From Verrucomicrobiota bacterium (GTDB lineage Bacteria; Verrucomicrobiota; Kiritimatiellia; CAIQIC01; JAGNIJ01), in assembly GCA_018823105.1 (NCBI GenBank), contig JAHJJH010000162.1:1-41515 (forward strand): 41,515 nt of DNA, given 5' to 3'. Numbering within the stretch: position 1 is the first letter of the stretch; each line of letters begins with the position of its first letter. The notes below the pieces were generated by a model. The model did not search any database. It was not told the origin of the DNA and worked only from the letters and a program-made list of their open reading frames with translations. Made by a program: the position numbers and the translations under genes. Shown piece by piece: positions 3,262-41,515 of the stretch.

Positions 3262-5519
3262 TGACCCATGATCCCATGTGCGGCATGGAGGTGGATACGG
3301 CGACAGCCCATCGCGCCGTGCAGGAGGGGAAGACGTACTATTTCTGCTCGGCCGGTTGCCGCGACAAGTTCCTCCACCCCCCCGACGCCTCACGCCTGTC
3401 ACCTGTCCCCTCCCTCTATACCTGTCCCATGCACCCGGAAGTCGAGCAGCCGGGTCCTGGCCTCTGTCCCAAGTGCGGCATGGCGCTGGAACCCAAAGAG
3501 GCGTCGGAAGAAGGGGACGATACGGAACTGAAAGACATGAGCCGCCGGTTCTGGGCCGGACTCGTGTTGACCGTGCCGGTGTTTATCCTGGCCATGGGCG
3601 GCATGATACCCGGCGACCCCATGGGCCGTTTCGTTCCGCGCACGGTTTCCAAATGGATCGAACTGTTCCTGGCCACTCCGGTTGTGCTGTGGGCGGGGCT
3701 GCCCTTCTTCAAGCGGGCGTGGCGGTCCGTGAAGACGCGATACCTGAACATGTTCACCCTGATCGGCGTGGGCACCGGCGCGGCCTACGTGTACAGCGTG
3801 ATCGCCACGCTCTTCCCGCGCGTTTTTCCGGAATCGTTCCGCCACCACGGCGAAGTGGCCCTCTACTTTGAGGCGTCAGCGGTGATTATCGTGCTGGTTC
3901 TCCTGGGACAGGTTTTGGAGCTTCGGGCACGGAAGCGAACGAGCGGAGCCATCAAGGAGCTGATGGGACTCGCGGCGAAGACGGCGCGGGTTGTTCGCGA
4001 CGGCGAAGAACAGGAAATCCCGATCGAGGACGTCAAACCGGGGGACATCCTGCGGGTCCGTCCGGGGGAGAAGATCCCGGTGGATGGACAACTCACGGAG
4101 GGAAAGAGCACGGTTGACGAATCCATGATCACCGGCGAACCGCTGCCGGCGGAAAAGGCGCCCGGCGACCCGGTTACGGGCGCAACGATCAATCAGACCG
4201 GCTCGTTTCTGATGCGCGCGACGAAAGTGGGGGCCGACACCTTGCTCTCACAAATCGTACACATGGTCAGCGAGGCCCAGCGCAGCCGCGCACCCATCCA
4301 GGGACTGGCCGATCGCGTCGCTTCCATCTTTGTCCCGGCCGTGATCGCGGTGGCCGTCGCCACCTTCATCGTATGGGCATGGATGGGTCCCGAGCCCCGG
4401 ATGGCCCATGCCCTGGTCAACGCCGTGGCCGTGCTGATCATCGCCTGTCCCTGCGCGCTGGGGCTGGCCACGCCCATGTCCATCATGGTCGGCGTGGGCC
4501 GCGGCGCCCGCGCCGGCATCCTGATCAAGAACGCGGAGGCCCTGGAGGTGATGGAGAAAGTGGATACCGTCGTTGTGGATAAGACCGGCACGCTGACCGA
4601 AGGCCGGCCCGCCGTGACGGATATCCGCGGTAACGGACAGCTCGAGGAAAGCGAGATACTCCGGCTGGCCGCCTCGGTGGAACAGAACAGTGAGCACCCC
4701 CTGGCGGCGGCTATCGTCCGCGCCGCCAAGGAGCGGGGACTGACCCTCGCCAAAGCGGACGATTTCCAGTCCACGACCGGCGGCGGCGTAACCGCCACGG
4801 TGGAGCAGCATAACGTGAAAGTCGGCAAACCGGAGTTCCTCGAAAAAGGCGGCGTCGAGGGTATCCGTGCGCTGCGGGACGCCGCGCGAGATTGGCAGGA
4901 GACGGGACAGACCGTCATCTTCGTGGCCGTTGACGGCAAGGCCAAGGGAATCCTCGCCATTTCAGACCCGATCAAGAAGACAACGGCCGAAGCCGTGGCC
5001 GCCCTGCACGGCCTCGGGCTGCAGGTTTGCATGGTGACGGGAGACAACGAGATGACGGCGCGCCATGTGGCGAAGTTGTTGGCCATTGATGACGTGCAGG
5101 CGGGGGTGGCCCCGCAAGACAAACATGAACGCGTGAAGGTCCTGCGATCCGAGGGGCACATCGTCGCCATGGCCGGTGACGGAATCAATGACGCGCCCGC
5201 GCTGGCGGCGGCCCATATCGGCATCGCCATGGGTACGGGCACGGACGTGGCCATCGAAAGCGCCGGGGTGACCCTGGTCAAAGGCGACCTGCGAGGAATC
5301 GTGAAGGCCATCACCCTGAGCCGCCGGGTCATGCGCAACATACGGCAGAACCTGTTCTTCGCGTTCGTCTATAACGCGCTCGGCATCCCCGTCGCGGCAG
5401 GCGTCCTGTATCCCTTCTTCGGCCTGCTGCTGAGCCCCATGATCGCTGCGGCCGCCATGAGTTTCAGCTCGGTATCCGTAGTGACGAATGCCCTTCGACT
5501 GCGGCACCTCAGGCTTTAG
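3258..5519 (+). CDS. copA: Copper/heavy-metal translocating P-type ATPase with N-terminal YHS domain and heavy-metal-binding motif
   Basis: ATG at 3258 overlaps the upstream TGA (ATGA). [11 protein letters not shown]...YYFCSAGC (YHS), YTCPMHPEV...[11 protein letters not shown] motif ([11 protein letters not shown]), [19 protein letters not shown]. Confidence 0.93.
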
Positions 5520-5733
5520 TGCATTGGGGCTCCAAGTCATGACGAAGGGGATGCGGATGTGATCGAGCAAAGGAAGGAAACCGATGAACATGCTATACGA
5601 GCGGACCGCCCGTTTAAACGATCAGCAGATCGAGACCCTCACGGCATGGATGAAGTCCCAGGCCGGCGAATGACGTGGCCGGGGCAGGGAACCCCGGACT
5701 TACCTCGGCGTAGCCACCGGGGCGAAGCCGGGC

Positions 5734-5766
5734 TTGCCTCGCCGTAGCTCATAGAGCGCAGGCGGG
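5734..5766. repeat. REP-like imperfect palindrome (GCCTCGCCGTAGCTCATAGAGCGCAGGCGGG)
   Basis: GCTC-ATA-GAGC stem-loop with outer GCCT/AGGC pairing. A related CCTCGGCGTAGCC string lies about 30 bp upstream. Noncoding context. Confidence 0.4.
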
Positions 5767-5972
5767 AGTACCGGCTATCGCCGTCAGGGCAGATTTCCTA
5801 TGGGGCCCCGGAGGGGTATCACGATGACTGCGTTATCGCGCTGGCGCTGGCAAACAGGTATCGGCAGGAATATTTCGTAACCGGTCAGATGCATGCGCTT
5901 GCCCGCCCCAATGTTTCCCCTGGGCTTCTTGCGGAATCGGGGCGTTTTTTATCTCTAACAATTATTTTTTAG
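5748..5972 (+). pseudogene. Remnant of phage terminase large subunit C-terminus
   Basis: Frame beginning after the TAG at 5745 reads LIERRREYRLSPSGQISYGAPEGYHDDCVIALALANRYRQEY..., matching the typical 'APEGxHDDCVxALALA' C-terminal nuclease motif of terminases. No upstream ORF. Confidence 0.6.
5904..5950 (+). terminator. Candidate rho-independent terminator
   Basis: CGCCCC (5904-5909) pairs with GGGGCG (5939-5944), followed by T6. The loop is long, so moderate only. Confidence 0.4.
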
Positions 5973-6022
5973 CTTTTGCCCGCATAAAACCTTGACTAAG
6001 TCAAAAGCCACAGGTAAAAGCT
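5971..6022 (+). promoter_or_regulatory. Candidate promoter/operator of the Rhs island with nested inverted repeats
   Basis: TTGACT (5992-5997), 17-nt spacer, TAAAAG (6015-6020). TTGACT-A-AGTCAA palindrome 5992-6004 is nested in AGCTTTTGCC (5971-5980) / GGTAAAAGCT (6013-6022). Confidence 0.5.
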
Positions 6023-6054
6023 AACCATCTTGGGACTGCACGGAGGGGCGGGGC

Positions 6055-7155
6055 ATGGTACGGAAGCTCCGAAATCTTTGGGGTCGGGTTGAAATCCGTG
6101 TTTTGATGATGCTGGTCTGCGGCATCTTTCTGGCCGGCTTGGCTATTTGCTTGGCGCAACTCGCAATTTCTTCCTCTGAATCCGATTTCCCGACCATTTC
6201 CTCGTGGGATGACCTGGTCGGTGAGTACCTGCGTTTCCGCGAGTCAAGTTACGCCCTGGTTGTGCCCGATGAATTCACGTCGTACGGGCAAACGGAGGCG
6301 ATGCTCAAGGAGTACGCCTTCGATGCCTTACAGGCCGAACCGGGGTGGTACTGGAACTTTGACGGCGGGGTCTTCTATTTTGACGAGGCAAGCCCCTTAG
6401 CGAAGCAGGTTGAGCACGGGACAGAGATCGTCATCTACGAGGACATGGCGCGTGGAGAACTTCTGGTTCTGCGTGTGCCACAGACCGAGAAAGAAGACTG
6501 CCGGGAGGAGATCGTTTATCGCGCTCCGAAGTGGCCGGAGGTTCAGAACGGGGAAGATTACGCGGTCTACTTATGGCGCGAATTGTCGAAACGACGGCTC
6601 GCTTGGCAGGTTACGCTGAAGGCCAGCGAGCTTGCGGAAAAGGAAGCGGATAGCGGCTTGTCTGCTGAATCAGCATCCCCGGGTTCCGGCATGATGCTGC
6701 TTTTCGAAGAAGAGTGGACCAATCATCTTTGGTTGTCCGTCTATGGTCCGTCTGATGGGCTGACCAACGTAATTGTCGCGGTGCATATACCCGAGGAATT
6801 CACGAACCGGGTTGAAATATTCTCCATCACGAACCTGCTCGGATTTCCGTGGAGCCTGGCCGTGACGAATCTCTCCGCAGCGGGGACCAATTCGGTTTCT
6901 TGGGTAGAGCCCGAATTGGAGAATTTAGAAAAGTCCTACTACATCGCGGGCAATGCTGATTTGGATTCCGATGAGGACGGTCTTGCGGATGCGCGCGAGA
7001 AGTTTATGTATGGCACCGATCCGTCCGAAGAGGATACGGACGGCGACGAAATGTCAGATGGGCTGGAAGTGGAACTGGGCACAGATCCGCTTGTGTTCAA
7101 TCCTGCCCCGGAAGTAGAGATCACTTCGCCCCGCGATGGAGGCATTCTCCCATGA
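6055..7155 (+). CDS. Membrane-anchored/secreted protein with C-terminal thrombospondin type-3-like Ca-binding repeats
   Basis: N-terminal hydrophobic segment (VLMMLVCGIFLAGLAICLAQL). C-terminal DLDSDEDGLADAREKFMYGTDPSEEDTDGDEMSDGLEVELGTDPL. SD-like GGAGGGG upstream. Confidence 0.8.
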   Translation: MVRKLRNLWGRVEIRVLMMLVCGIFLAGLAICLAQLAISSSESDFPTISSWDDLVGEYLRFRESSYALVVPDEFTSYGQTEAMLKEYAFDALQAEPGWYWNFDGGVFYFDEASPLAKQVEHGTEIVIYEDMARGELLVLRVPQTEKEDCREEIVYRAPKWPEVQNGEDYAVYLWRELSKRRLAWQVTLKASELAEKEADSGLSAESASPGSGMMLLFEEEWTNHLWLSVYGPSDGLTNVIVAVHIPEEFTNRVEIFSITNLLGFPWSLAVTNLSAAGTNSVSWVEPELENLEKSYYIAGNADLDSDEDGLADAREKFMYGTDPSEEDTDGDEMSDGLEVELGTDPLVFNPAPEVEITSPRDGGILP

Positions 7156-7628
7156 AAGTCGTGAAAGTCGCCTTGTGCGCTTTGCTCATAGGCTCCTTGC
7201 CGACGTGGGCGGGGTACCGCAACATATCCAAGGAATACACTCGCTCTTCTTCGGAATCCACTGTGTCACCCCGCTGGCAAGCTCAGATTATCCGGGCGCA
7301 CGGACAGCGTCTAACCCCTGTGAATCGCGCCGGCCGTATGGATCCCCTTGATGTCGAGGCCCTGGAAGTCGTGGATGTCGTATTAACTCGGGTGGGATTA
7401 CCCGAGGGCGCATCCGTCTATGCTTATGTCGTCAATGGTGGACGTATCAATGGCAGGATTTCTGAAACTCTCGTTGCGGGCAAAGAAGGGCGGATTTCAT
7501 TTGCTTTTCAAGCGGGGAGGTATTTCGGCGACTATCCCGTGGTTTTGCGCCATAACGGGCGGGAAGAGACGCTGATGTTCTGGGTAAAGCAGGCCAAATT
7601 AGCACCGGCAGAGGAGCAGAAGCCATGA
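7152..7628 (+). CDS. Secreted hypothetical protein, predicted beta-rich
   Basis: Signal-peptide-like N-terminus (MKVVKVALCALLIGSLPTWA). ATGA overlaps with both neighbours. Confidence 0.7.
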   Translation: MKVVKVALCALLIGSLPTWAGYRNISKEYTRSSSESTVSPRWQAQIIRAHGQRLTPVNRAGRMDPLDVEALEVVDVVLTRVGLPEGASVYAYVVNGGRINGRISETLVAGKEGRISFAFQAGRYFGDYPVVLRHNGREETLMFWVKQAKLAPAEEQKP

Positions 7629-10600
7629 AGCGGCTGGCCCTGCTTATCGGAACAGGGTTCTTGTTTGCGACTGCCGCTCAAGGGGTAACCAATGATCCGC
7701 CCTGTGGTAATCCGATAAAGCAACTGCCCCCGTCCAACTGCACGCATAACGCATCCAGCAATCCTTTTGACGTGTACTCCGGCAGCGTTGGCCGGGAGGT
7801 GATAGACCTGGAGCCGGCGCATTCCGTTGGGACGGCCCCCTTGCGCTTCGCCCGCTACCATGCCAGCCGCTGGGATGTGAATCCTGGATTCGATATCGCC
7901 TTTGAAAAACCCTTTGGCGACGGCGGCAACTGGAGGCATCGCTTCCTGTGGACAGTTCTCGACAACGGCACCAATTCAGCCGGCCAAAAATCCATTCGGA
8001 TCATCTATCCCTATGGCTTTTATGGGAATTTTGCTAAGGCGGACAGCAATGCCACGCATTTGACCTACTTGGCCAGCGTCCATGAGCGGGTGCTTGAAGA
8101 AGGTACCAACTATTTTTTAATCATGCTGGATGGCACCCGGTATCACTTCACTGGATGGACCAACGAGGCCGGGCGTTTTTACCGCATGGAAGGATTCTCC
8201 GATCCCTACTCTAACCAATACCAGTTTGCATACACCGGGGGTCAGTTGACCGAGGTCATCGGTCCCAACACGAATCTTTCACTAGACTTCACTTACACCA
8301 CGCTGACGAATTCCCAGCCGCCGGGTGAAATCCAATTTACCTTTAGCGATAACACGGCCACACAAGTCTTGCTGGCCGGCACTTTCAATAGCTGGTCCGG
8401 CCAGGACATGACCAATAGCGCCGGGCTCTGGTCTTGTGCGGTCACGCTGACTAATGGCATTTATGAGTACAAATTCATCGCGCGTTATGCCGGGCAAACC
8501 AATGATTTCTGGTATAGCGACCCGGACAACCCGCTTTACACCCTTCCCAATTCCAACTCGGTAGCTTTGATTCAGAGTAATGACTGGACCTCTACGTTGC
8601 TGACGTCCGTACAGGGAACCGATACCCGCGTGGTGAGTTATCAGTATGGTCAGATTTGGGGCACAGGCATCGTCCATGTTGTCCTGACCAACGCTTCGTA
8701 TGGAGACGGTACTTGCGCGGCATATACTTACTATCATCCATCCGAGGACTGGGGCCGCCGTCCTTTGCTGAAAACGGCGGACGATCCTATGTATGTTGGG
8801 CCTGCCCGCGCGGTTCGTTACATATATCAGAGCAACAATCTTTATCCCGGCCAGATATATGAGGAGCGCCACTTATTCACGGATCAACTGCTGGCGAGAT
8901 TAGAGATGGATGGCGCCCAACCCTTGTGGCGTCGCGTGACGAAGTCTGACGGGGCGACCGAGGACTTCATTTTCGGCACGAACACGGGGCAGCGCCTGGC
9001 CTACACCAATGCCGTCGGATATTCATACCGTGCTGAATACTACATGGCTGGCGATGCGGAGGGGATGCTTTGGAAGGAATCAGATCCCATGTCCCGCACG
9101 ACCACATACAGCCGAACCTGGGATTTTGGGGCCGTTACCATTGCCTCCAATAACATTTTGGGCGTCCGGCAATATATTTATACCAGCAATGCAGAGCCGT
9201 TCTATTTGAGCGCTGAAATAGATGAGGCCGGCCGAACCAACGCTTATACCCGCGATAGCTGCCATCGAATTACGCGCCACGATTATCCCGATGGGAGCTA
9301 TGAGACATTCACGTACAACGATCACGGCCAGATCCTAACCCATCGCCGCCGTGACGGCGGTGAGTGGAGCTATGAATATGATGAGCGCGGCCGCAAGATT
9401 CTCGAAACCGACCCTGACGATGCGACCACCACCTTCGGGTACGACGACTATAATCGCTTAACCGCCACAACCAATGCTTTGGGCTATGTCACCCGCCAGT
9501 TCAACAACTGGCGTGGGCTGGTGACCAACGTTGTGTATGCTGACGGGACCGAGGAAAAGACCTGGTACGACCTTTATGGACAACCAACGCAACGTCTCGA
9601 CCGGGCTGGAGGTCTTTGGTCGTCGTTCTATGACGAATTGGGATATCTCTCCGTTACCCGTGACCCGCTGGACCACGAAATCAACTACTGTCATGATGTG
9701 GAGAGACGCCTGCTCGCCATCAGCAACGCTGTTGGCTTGGTCATTAGCAACACCTATGATGGAATAGGCCGGAAAGTCCGGGAGACTTATTCTACCGATA
9801 ATACGTATTATGAATGGCACTACGACCCCGACGGCGTCCGCACGCAATTCAATCGCCTCACCATGCCTACCACGTTCACCTATACACCGGAAGGCCGGTT
9901 GCGGAGCGTCATGGATCCTTTGGGCCGTACGATGAGTTATGGTTATGATCTCGCCGGCAACAGAACGCACATCACCAATGCCCTTGGCGATGTCATCATT
10001 CAAACCTATGACCCCGCCGACCGCGTCACCTCTGTTCGGGATTGTTCCGGCGCGGTGGTAAGCAACGTGTACGATGCGGGTGGCCGGATTGTCATCCGAA
10101 CCGATCCCAACGGCATCACAAATGAGTTCATGTACGACGCCGCGGGCCGCTTGCTCTCTAGCTGGCGCGGCGGGTGTCTCCTTCAAAGCAACGCCTACAA
10201 CACCCTCGGATGGCTCACAGCTTCCATGGATGCCAATGTCCTTGCGCGAACCAACACCTACGACGCCGCCGGCCGATTGCTCCGCGTCTATTTGCCCGAC
10301 GACTCATTCTCCGAGAATGTATATTCCAATACTTTCCTGGTTGAAACTGTGGATCGCGCAGGCCGTCAGACCCTCCTCCTGCGAGACGTTATGGGCCGCG
10401 TCACGAACCAGATTGACAACGCCGACCAAACCGTCCATTTCACTTATGATCCCGCCGGCAGCCTGACTCATCTTTGGGATCAGAACGGCAACCTCACCCG
10501 GTTCCTATATGATGCCGAAGGCCGGCAAACGGCGAAAATCTACGCCGATAATTCCCAATATGCGTACTCGTACGACGCCGAAGGTCGCCTTGTTTCCAAA

Positions 10601-37021: not shown

Positions 37022-38563
37022 TCACCGTGCCGACTTGAGATACACTTCGAGACGGCCATCGAACCCGCCAAGATCAACCACCTGCCGGGATTGCAACTGG
37101 AGTGAAGGGTCAAGAGGTCCGATGCGCAACGGATTAACGAATACGAGCCGACCGCCTGGCTTAAGCACCGTGGCGGCGACGGTAAAAAAATCCGCGAACA
37201 GGCCGCGCATGTCGGGGATGCGAATACGTCTTCCCATGGGCGGGTTGGTGATGATGAGGGTGATGCTATCCGGGCCCAGGCCCTCGACCGCGGCAAAGTC
37301 GCGGAAGTCACAGCAGGTGAACTTCGATTGAATGGACTTCACCTTCGCGACGGAAAAGTTGTCCCTGGCAATGGCAATGGCCTCCGGGCTCACATCCGTT
37401 CCGTAAACGCTTTGCACGCCGCCCAGCAGCGCTCGTTCGACAAGTTCCAAGCCTGATCCGCAAAAAGGGTCCCAGACTATCTCCTCCTCAACCTTTCCGG
37501 CCAGGCGGGCCATGCAAGCGGCCAGCGGAGGATGGGAGGCGGCCGCGATATCCTGTCGGCGATAATAAAAACGCGGATCGGGCGCCAGCCTCGGACGCAA
37601 TTCAACCGAGCTTCCGCGCCCTGCCGGGTGAATGTCGATCGCCCAGGGAGCAAGCCGGGCGTCGTTGAGAATGTCTGGACACAGGGCATAGGCCCGGTTG
37701 GCCACGAGACGCACCGCCCCCCTCTGGTGGCCCTTGGAAATAAATTCCAGGCGATAGCGGATCGAGCCTTCCGTGAAAGTGGAAAGAAGTTCCCGCGATA
37801 AGGGCGATGTAATGGTTGCCGCCAAAGCTTCAATGGACTCCGCCGCGTTGGTGCTCCGAACGGTGCCCAGAACGAAGTTAACGGTGCCGAAACAACGGAG
37901 CGTATACAGGTCGGCCACGGAAAAGGGAACCGCCGGCGTGATCGCGACCAACCCGCGGCGGACCTCGGCGATGCGGAATCGGCCCTGCGGCCCCATGCGC
38001 TCCTTCACCTCGTCACGGACAATCTTTTCCAACCCCCTGCGACAGCGCAAATGGATCCGCAAACGGGTGAACCGGGAGAGGGTTCTGTCCATTCGGATTT
38101 TACTTGGCCTTTGACTGCGGGCGACACTGGCTTTCACCTTTTGCTCGGTTTGCGGAAGAAATCCGCGGCCCCCGTCCACGACTTCCAGCGTGGCCGGCCC
38201 GCCGATTTTATCCAGAGCCTGGCCCAGGGATTTCTGCTCGCGCTCGACCACGGTCGTCCGCAGCAAGGAAAGCAGTTCCGCTTCCTCGCCCGGACCGGCG
38301 CCGATCTTGGGCAGTGCTGTAATGGCGTAGCGTCGTATCTTCTCGCAAGGATCGCGCAGCAAGCCCACAAGCCACAACCTCACCTCGGCCCTCTGTTCCG
38401 CCGTGCCGGAGGCGGCAAAGACCACGCCCACCGCGCGAATGACCGCCACCCTTTCCATCCGCTCCTTGGCAGTGGCTTTATTGAACCGTGCCACCTCGAC
38501 CTTCCACAACTGGCCGCACGACAGGACGCGCAACTGACGATAAAAGTCTTTGTCGGTTTTCAT
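37022..38563 (-). CDS. THUMP-domain class I SAM-dependent RNA methyltransferase with N-terminal HEAT-like extension
   Basis: C-terminal VWDPFCGSGLELVERALLGGVQSVYGTDVSPEAIAIARDNF and TNPPMGRR. N-terminal helical repeats (LWLVGLLRDPCEKIRRYAITALPKIG...). The ORF's upstream extension to 39163 is antisense/off-frame to the GH127 gene. Confidence 0.82.
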   Translation of the reverse strand: MKTDKDFYRQLRVLSCGQLWKVEVARFNKATAKERMERVAVIRAVGVVFAASGTAEQRAEVRLWLVGLLRDPCEKIRRYAITALPKIGAGPGEEAELLSLLRTTVVEREQKSLGQALDKIGGPATLEVVDGGRGFLPQTEQKVKASVARSQRPSKIRMDRTLSRFTRLRIHLRCRRGLEKIVRDEVKERMGPQGRFRIAEVRRGLVAITPAVPFSVADLYTLRCFGTVNFVLGTVRSTNAAESIEALAATITSPLSRELLSTFTEGSIRYRLEFISKGHQRGAVRLVANRAYALCPDILNDARLAPWAIDIHPAGRGSSVELRPRLAPDPRFYYRRQDIAAASHPPLAACMARLAGKVEEEIVWDPFCGSGLELVERALLGGVQSVYGTDVSPEAIAIARDNFSVAKVKSIQSKFTCCDFRDFAAVEGLGPDSITLIITNPPMGRRIRIPDMRGLFADFFTVAATVLKPGGRLVFVNPLRIGPLDPSLQLQSRQVVDLGGFDGRLEVYLKSAR

Positions 38564-40518
38564 AGCGTCGGGAAGATCGCGATCCGCAGCCGCGTGCAAC
38601 CGTACGGGACCAGCGTGATCCACTCCACCTTCCGCGAGGCTTTTTCCAGGGCGCGCGCGGTCGGCAGCGGCGGGGTCATCATGAAATCGCCGCGCCGCGT
38701 CCCGTGCCACTTGTCGCGGAGGACCTTCAGCCGGCGCGCGCGCCAGCCCGGGACGCGCACGGCGGGCACGCGCAGGACCACCGGCGGCGGCCGGCCGTCC
38801 CAGGGAAACGAGTTTTCCAATGATTGGAAAAATGCCGCGTTTTTTTTCCAATGATTGGAAACTTTGGATAGCGCGTAATTCCACGGCCCCGCGGGGCGGA
38901 TATTCCACGCCGGAAACTTGTCGCTGGAACGCGGGTCCCGCCGGTCGCGGCGGCGGTGCTCGGGGATGGGCAGGGCGAATAGCAACGGGCCGCGACGTAC
39001 GCACACGCCGCCGCCGGACTGCCGCTCGAGCCGGATGTCCATGGGCAGATCGAGTTCCAGCCGGTCGCCATCGCGGAAACGCCGCCGCATTTCGACGAAC
39101 GCTCCCCGACGGAGCGAGCCCACGAACTTCTCTCCATTGATGAGCAACCGGGAACTCCGACACCAGCCGGGGATCCGTAGAAAGAGCGAAAACAAGACGG
39201 GCCGCGCGGTTTTTACGACAAATTGGATTTTTTCGGCGAACGGATAATCCGTTCTCTCAACGATGGTTATGGTCGCACCCGACCGTCCGGCGCGGAACGT
39301 GACGGTCGAGGGACCATAAAACGTGGCGGCGATGCCTCCGCCCGGCCGCTCCATCCACATGCGCGCCAAGTAATTCGGCACGATGCGGGTGACGTTGCCC
39401 GGGCAGCATTCGGTAGCCGGGTTGGGGCGATAGGATTTGTGGGCCCAGCCGAATCCGTGTCCGTGGTGGTTCGCGCTCGCGTCGGCCACGATCTGGTTCG
39501 GGCTCGAAAAGTACTGCAACGCCTTGAAGTCCGGCAGCAACGCGCCGGGTGCCGCGTTGAAGACGGTGTTTTCGATCCAGTCCGCGTACGCCGCGTCGCC
39601 GGTGGCCATCAGCAGGTAACCCAGACTCCAGGCGGCGTCGGCAATGACGCAGGTCTCGTGGCCGGCGGTCGGGTCGCGACCCTTGAGATGCTCGGTGGAA
39701 CTGGGCACGCCGTCCGCGAGGACGTGGTCGCGGGCCAGCTTGCGCCAGGCATTCGCAGAGGACCGCAGAAGTTTCCGGTTGCCCGTGTAGAGGAAGAGGA
39801 TGGCTGGCAGCTTGGATAGCTCGCAGTAGTTCACGCCATGGTCCCGGGCGGTCGCTCGCGAGAGCATGCTGCGCAAGCTGGTCGCCGCATCCGGATGCCG
39901 GCGATTGAATCCGGCCAGGCTTTGGCGGGCGAGGGCGAGCAGGCGGCGGTCGCCGGTCTGCGCATAGAGCCAGAGCATGATTTCTACGTTGCACAGATTG
40001 CGCCCGTCGCGGAACTCCGCGGTGCCGGAGAGATAGTGGCGCGTCAACCGGCGGAGGATCGTGCGCTGGTGCTTCGCGGGGAGGTGAGTCATCAGCGCGC
40101 GGAAGAGGACGGCGTGCGGCCAGCGCTCGGCGCGGCCTTCGGGCGTGATTTTCTTGAGGGCGGCGGGGCCAAGATAGCCGTCGGCGTCGGGATGATCGAG
40201 CACGTGGTCGAGCTGGCGGAATGCTTTGCGCAAGAGGCTGTTATCGCGCAGAAGCTGGCCGCAGCGGGCCATGCCGTCAATCCAGTAGGCGACCTGTTCA
40301 TAGGGCCACCAGGCGCTACCGGGCCCGCCCCGGCGGCGAATGGGATCGAGCAGCCAGCCGCCGGTATCGAAAGGATACCCGGCGTGTTCGAGATGACCCG
40401 TCAACCCGTCGCGCTGGCGCTCGAGCCAGCGGTGCAGCCAGCCGGACGGCCGGATCGCGGCGAGGTTCAACTCGCGGAATACACCGTGATAGCGGGCGGG
40501 CTTCGAGCGTGGTTTCAT
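38560..40518 (-). CDS. Glycoside hydrolase family 127-like protein (DUF1680, beta-L-arabinofuranosidase-like)
   Basis: GGWLLDPIRRRGGPGSAWWPYEQVAYWIDGMARCG, ATECCPGNVTRIVPNYLARMWM, C-terminal LVPYGCTRLRIAIFP. Start chosen at MKPRSKPARYHG. Confidence 0.85.
   Translation of the reverse strand: MKPRSKPARYHGVFRELNLAAIRPSGWLHRWLERQRDGLTGHLEHAGYPFDTGGWLLDPIRRRGGPGSAWWPYEQVAYWIDGMARCGQLLRDNSLLRKAFRQLDHVLDHPDADGYLGPAALKKITPEGRAERWPHAVLFRALMTHLPAKHQRTILRRLTRHYLSGTAEFRDGRNLCNVEIMLWLYAQTGDRRLLALARQSLAGFNRRHPDAATSLRSMLSRATARDHGVNYCELSKLPAILFLYTGNRKLLRSSANAWRKLARDHVLADGVPSSTEHLKGRDPTAGHETCVIADAAWSLGYLLMATGDAAYADWIENTVFNAAPGALLPDFKALQYFSSPNQIVADASANHHGHGFGWAHKSYRPNPATECCPGNVTRIVPNYLARMWMERPGGGIAATFYGPSTVTFRAGRSGATITIVERTDYPFAEKIQFVVKTARPVLFSLFLRIPGWCRSSRLLINGEKFVGSLRRGAFVEMRRRFRDGDRLELDLPMDIRLERQSGGGVCVRRGPLLFALPIPEHRRRDRRDPRSSDKFPAWNIRPAGPWNYALSKVSNHWKKNAAFFQSLENSFPWDGRPPPVVLRVPAVRVPGWRARRLKVLRDKWHGTRRGDFMMTPPLPTARALEKASRKVEWITLVPYGCTRLRIAIFPTL
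38813..38861. repeat. Paired palindrome TTTTCCAATGATTGGAAA in-frame inside the GH127-like gene
   Basis: Copies at 38813-38831 and 38845-38861. The spacer is A/T-tract symmetric (AAAAATGCCGCGTTTTT), making the whole element near-palindromic. Confidence 0.85.
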
Positions 40519-40654
40519 GGAGCGGCGGACTATACGCCGTTCAAGGTGAGAGGCAAGCTCACATGACGCGTCAACGCTCATAGCACAGGCGCCCTGCTTC
40601 CTGTCAGGCGAAACCCCATGCCAGCCTCTTTCACCCGAAAAAAGCACGGTGCCC

Positions 40655-41515
40655 TTATCGTGCAGGGCCCGTCTCACGCTCAACGACGACACCATGCCCG
40701 CGGCCGGGGCTATGGCCTTTGCCTGTGGTCTTGAGCCTCCTTTCTTCCAAAAGATCCAGCGGACTTTGCGCCGGGTTGCGCAAATCTTTCACCACGTGTG
40801 TGTACACCATGGTGGTCTCCACGCTGGAATGACCCAGGTATTCCTGGATTTCCCGCAGATCCACGCCGTTCAGCAGCAGGTGGGTGGCGAAACTGTGCCG
40901 TAGCGTGTGCACGGAGACGGGTTTATAAATCCCGGCCTGCCCTACGGCCGCTTTCACGGCCCGCTGGATCAGCGCATCGCATACATGGTGTCGCCGCACT
41001 TGCCCGCCCCGTGGGTCCACCGACAGTTTTTCGGAGGGAAAAACCCACTGCCAGCCCCATTCGGCCCCAGCCCTGGGAAACTTCGTCGCCAACGCATCCG
41101 GCAGCCATACCCCACCCACCCCCGCCTTCTGATCCTGCTCGTACATGCGACGGACCTCCGCCAGGTGCGCCTGCAGATCTGGGCACACCCGTTCGGCCAG
41201 CAATGTGGAGCGATCTTTGTCGCCTTTTCCCCCTCGAACAAACAACAATCGGTTCTCAAAATCCACGTCCTTCACACGCAGCCGGCAGCACTCCATGACG
41301 CGCAGTCCGCCCCCGTAGATCAACCCGGCCATCAGCCGCGGCGTACCGGTCATGAAATTCAGCAGCTGGCCTGTTTCCTCGACGGTCAGCACCACCGGAA
41401 GATGTCGCCCCCGTTTCGCGCGCAGCCCCTGCTCCATCTCGCCCAGGTCGATGTTCAATACCTCGCGGCACATGAAAAGGATCGCATTGAATGCCTGGTT
41501 CTGTGTCGAGGCCGA
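40655..41515 (-). CDS. intI: Integron integrase (IntI-type tyrosine recombinase), N-terminus truncated by window
   Basis: Reading extends past 41473 to the window edge (SASTQNQAFNAILFMCREVL). Catalytic GGLRVME, HTLRHSFATHLL, YLGHSSVETTMVYTH. IntI-specific insert ATKFPRAGAEWGWQWVFPSEKLSVDPRGGQVRRHHV. Confidence 0.92.
   Translation of the reverse strand, partial: SASTQNQAFNAILFMCREVLNIDLGEMEQGLRAKRGRHLPVVLTVEETGQLLNFMTGTPRLMAGLIYGGGLRVMECCRLRVKDVDFENRLLFVRGGKGDKDRSTLLAERVCPDLQAHLAEVRRMYEQDQKAGVGGVWLPDALATKFPRAGAEWGWQWVFPSEKLSVDPRGGQVRRHHVCDALIQRAVKAAVGQAGIYKPVSVHTLRHSFATHLLLNGVDLREIQEYLGHSSVETTMVYTHVVKDLRNPAQSPLDLLEERRLKTTGKGHSPGRGHGVVVERETGPAR

Follow-up and report, generated by a model that had tools for sequence, protein, structure and literature searches.

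The described systems closest to the locus studied here are the sedentary chromosomal integrons with integrases of the TIGR02249 kind (VchIntIA/IntI4; structure 2A3V). The integrase reported below has the same catalytic residues and the same IntI-specific insert, and its relatives share with these integrons the divergent arrangement of intI and array, as well as attC hairpins whose ends are AAC/GTT and one of whose L arms has an extra base. Two differences stand out. Neither attI nor attC is seen linked to the copy studied here, its 5' side lying past the end of the contig. The ORFs around the relatives' matches are longer, mostly about 430-470 codons, and suggest that the N-terminus is more extended than in VchIntIA.

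Verrucomicrobiota is a phylum listed as integron-bearing (PMC8618304), and our locus most likely shares both phylum and mechanism with the integrons of that list. A literature search found no paper that describes integrons in Kiritimatiellae. Splitting at contig borders of draft assemblies, for complete integrons and lone integrases (In0), is described in the IntegronFinder 2.0 paper (PMC9024848). As in those cases, an intI gene lies here at a contig end and attC sites lie on other contigs; what differs is that a single metagenome-assembled genome has each of its four long intI genes affected.

An integron integrase fragment at a contig end

The window, meaning the whole stretch of 41,515 nucleotides that was analysed, is the entire contig C140:1-41515 of a metagenome-assembled genome of 3.56 Mb, in 356 contigs and about 90% complete. 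Base 41515 is the contig end, so the intI gene found there is truncated: the minus-strand ORF 40655-41515 is open up to the final base, and comprises the C-terminal 286 codons of intI, the 5' end being missing. Directly downstream lies a GH127-like beta-L-arabinofuranosidase gene (38560-40695, minus strand).

The fragment scored 342.6 bits with the integron integrase model NCBIfam TIGR02249 (cutoff 265), over model positions 60-314 of 315. It contains the Phage_integrase domain PF00589. The catalytic set R72, K97, H203, R206, H229 and Y238 (fragment numbering) is complete, and invariant in an alignment of 17 IntI sequences. On the minus strand, the alignment places the box I arginine codon (catalytic R72) at 41300..41302, box II, HTLR(H), with the catalytic H203 and R206, uninterrupted at 40898..40909, and the codon of the catalytic tyrosine (Y238) at 40802..40804. 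The IntI-specific insert (I2 region), which Xer proteins do not have, reads DALATKFPRAGAEWGWQWVFPS..DPRGGQVRRHH in the fragment and aligns with 2A3V and 16 relatives; its region (LPDALATKFPRAGAEWGWQWVFPS...DPRGGQVRRHH) spans 40985..41104, minus strand. The Vibrio integron integrase 2A3V is the closest PDB entry by sequence, and again the closest to the predicted fold (44% identity, E 5.9e-20), the fold model itself having a moderate pLDDT of 72.9.

A Xer-like or other tyrosine recombinase could be mistaken for IntI, as the PF00589 domain is common to both. However, the XerC and XerD models gave 131-133 bits, far below their cutoffs of about 330-335, whereas TIGR02249 exceeded its own, and the fragment has the IntI-specific insert. 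A tree of 55 rows was built by a quick method that left many inner branches open; only its starred supports are used. The split between IntI and Xer has a starred support of 96 and parts the fragment from Xer. Family models, tree and insert together refute this alternative, to which we give practically no chance.

Thus 40655-41515 encodes a real IntI fragment. The first-pass annotation had proposed an integron integrase at the right edge, on the minus strand and with its 5' end past base 41515, and the ORF open at the contig end agrees with this placement. The catalytic residues that it had read in the protein were all found (R-K-HxxR-H-Y), and the IntI-specific insert that it had named was recovered by alignment with 2A3V and the relatives. 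Its call of an integron integrase is borne out by TIGR02249 over its cutoff, by the fold and by phylogeny; in the IntI tree that it had suggested as a check, the fragment groups with IntI, and a placement with XerC/D is ruled out.

Within IntI, the fragment sits in a clade of 17 sequences (starred support 99), beside L077, which comes from the same order as the source and has at least 14 attC sites. The clade consists mostly of relatives from the same class, with sequences from Acidobacteria, Desulfogranum and Aegiribacteria among them. This mixed membership suggests that some horizontal movement may have taken place. Named relatives include Kiritimatiellae assemblies, from which the source is probably a Kiritimatiellae-like bacterium (Verrucomicrobiota). 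An integron integrase was present in 44 of the 96 sampled relatives; such integrases, often with arrays, are therefore common in the class. The window gene is an ordinary but real additional member of the IntI family at an assembly edge; with its clear placement, it extends the record of a phylum whose integrons are little described.

The missing 5' side and the attC sites

A strict search for RYYYAAC/GTTRRRY gave no matches, and this pattern was dropped as too strict for the lineage. Relaxed pair searches and repeat searches revealed attC arrays in relatives, which led to three covariance models. R1 was built from 15 attC sites at the 5' side of relatives' intI genes, R2 is broader and was trained on other genomes only, and R3 is lineage-specific and includes attC sites of the source genome itself.

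Neither R1 nor R2 detected an attC in the window, which covers some 40 kb 3' of intI, and an Rfam search of the window gave nothing. The earlier remark that the window held no convincing attC is thus confirmed by two covariance models. The first-pass annotation had added that a lack of attC on both sides would point to a lone intI; this could be followed on the 3' side only, where 40 kb are free of attC.

The relatives have their arrays on the other side. IntI proteins 52-69% identical to the fragment, one of them from the same genus, are encoded by genes with a divergent attC array on their 5' side. In the 17-member clade and in near relatives, R1 located attC 5' of intI at L073 (the same-genus locus), L074, L075, L076, L077, L080, L082, L084 and L085, and R2 did so at L119 and L122. 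In the relatives' attC sites, the L arms have their extra base where it fits cassettes pointing away from intI, and hence the classic divergent layout. At four loci from other phyla (L138, L139, L142 and L150), attC sites were seen 3' of intI in the same orientation, which is the inverted-integrase layout.

The source genome also has attC sites of its own. With R2, trained on foreign sites, nine were found on seven other contigs (E 7.8e-9 to 3.3e-4, whole genome); R3 gave three further sites on C26 and C1 (E about 0.001 or better), and in total about 14 attC sites on eight contigs. They occur singly or in twos and threes, and the majority lie within tens of bases after a same-strand, cassette-like ORF. 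A run of three cassettes, ORF-attC-ORF-attC-ORF-attC, is present on C82 (L107) at 5139-8957, with defence-like products: a TIR/deoxyribosyltransferase-like protein (below Pfam cutoffs), Abi_C and Mrr-NACHT. Products of other cassettes include REase-ARP and a YoeB-like protein (below cutoff), and an Imm5-like protein is encoded adjoining an attC. Some sites adjoin ordinary chromosomal genes, such as ORFs that resemble recA (C228) and metF (C342), both named by eye. The contigs with attC may go with a different integrase, or may be integrase-free clusters (CALINs).

An array beyond base 41515 is well supported, if indirectly, because the genome has attC sites of its own and because the relatives' intI genes have divergent arrays at their 5' side; it would be out of view because the contig breaks within intI. 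Each of the assembly's four long intI genes stops, on its 5' side, at a contig end or at most about 0.5 kb from one. The missing N-terminal part of the window gene was found on no other contig of the assembly, and the last 136 bases of the window had no full match elsewhere in it. We infer that attI and a cassette array lie directly past the contig end, and the enzyme is presumably active. By homology with the IntI family, it would bind the folded single-stranded bottom strands of the attC sites of gene cassettes and join the cassettes at an attI adjoining its own 5' end, building up a divergently oriented array. The platform side, attI plus array, would then lie past base 41515 and have been lost to the assembly break; the contigs that bear the genome's other intI genes are broken likewise.

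Alternatively, the gene could be a lone integrase (In0), its cassettes lost or rearranged away, and the attC sites on other contigs remnants (CALINs) that are served in trans or decaying. The 40 kb on the 3' side without attC would agree with this, as would the occurrence of attC elsewhere in groups of one to three, some of them by ordinary chromosomal genes. However, the arrays of near relatives lie on the 5' side, exactly the part that is missing here, and it is on that side that four out of four long intI genes run into contig ends, so that we consider a lone integrase unlikely. Judged from sequence comparison, the locus is most probably one edge of a conventional chromosomal integron that the assembly has split, with the normal integrase of a sedentary integron, and the assembly break would account for the apparently lone intI.

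A palindromic insert in three paralogous intI genes

Related but distinct IntI proteins are encoded by the three other long intI genes: one on C275, one on C95, and one on C168 that is a near-copy, though partial, of the C95 gene. All three carry a near-identical palindromic insert with an in-frame TAA right after the catalytic HTFRH, at C275 5247-5347 (minus strand), C95 28773-28873 (minus) and C168 303-403 (plus), the loci being L018, L019 and L020. It reads RLIRRVAHTPHPCGAF.FGE.P.AATLAA-stop-V, and the frame picks up again at ASHLL. Orthologues 57-77% identical to C275 have an empty site, HTFRHSFASHLL or HTFRHTFASHLL, from which the net gain by the insert is 87 nt.

These interrupted genes raise the question of whether the window gene could likewise be a decaying pseudogene, with a broken N-terminus in the missing part. 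Its 286 codons are open, however, with the full catalytic set retained, and no insert interrupts box II, just after which the paralogues are broken, so that decay of the window gene appears highly improbable beside a normal integrase at the edge of a split integron.

Between C275 and C95 the insert is 95.6% identical, as against 64% and 75% for the gene flanks, suggesting that the insert was either transferred into the same site or strongly constrained. Over the 46 codons after the stop, 5 synonymous changes but 0 replacement changes separate C95 from C168 (neutral chance about 0.001). Only with an insert older than the C95/C168 split would this speak for continued function. It may thus be imagined that an element of roughly 90 nt inserts site-specifically behind the HTFRH codons and is removed or bypassed, the interrupted integrase still working or being switched on and off, but we consider this quite improbable. 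On the plainest reading, the three are related pseudogenes that were hit at one and the same site or have it in common. The interrupted paralogues offer a lead on small palindromic elements that inactivate, or possibly regulate, integron integrases.

An origin of the insert as an attC cassette was rejected: a cut at the two G^TT points would take out 88 nt and so disrupt the frame, and on L018, L019 and L020 the insert was not matched by the attC models. An IS200/IS605-type insertion after TTGAT is not supported, since the orthologous empty sites read CAY AGY TTY GCC. The insert was found neither in 288 genomes of the class nor in plasmids, nor, as an exact match, in viral contigs; Rfam gave only miRNA-like chance matches near the palindromes, and the folding energy is unexceptional for the composition (z about -1).

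A hairpin core, GGCTACCCTCGCC, is common to the insert and to repeats on C208 (L072; 602-753, 3193-3344 and 3392-3543) and on C27 (L244) near 4726. Because of this shared core and of the 11 Y1 transposase domains in the genome, an origin as a REP-like, transposase-mobilised palindrome (compare PMC3733652) is plausible. The insert-bearing contigs are richer in G+C than the window (0.635-0.656 versus 0.609), so they may have been binned wrongly.

The palindromic repeats of C208 lie among three small ORFs that look GIY-YIG nuclease-like by eye. On C206:10062-10175 (L024), a remnant of a C275-type integrase, AHTFRHSLATHLLQDNYS, is present without the insert.
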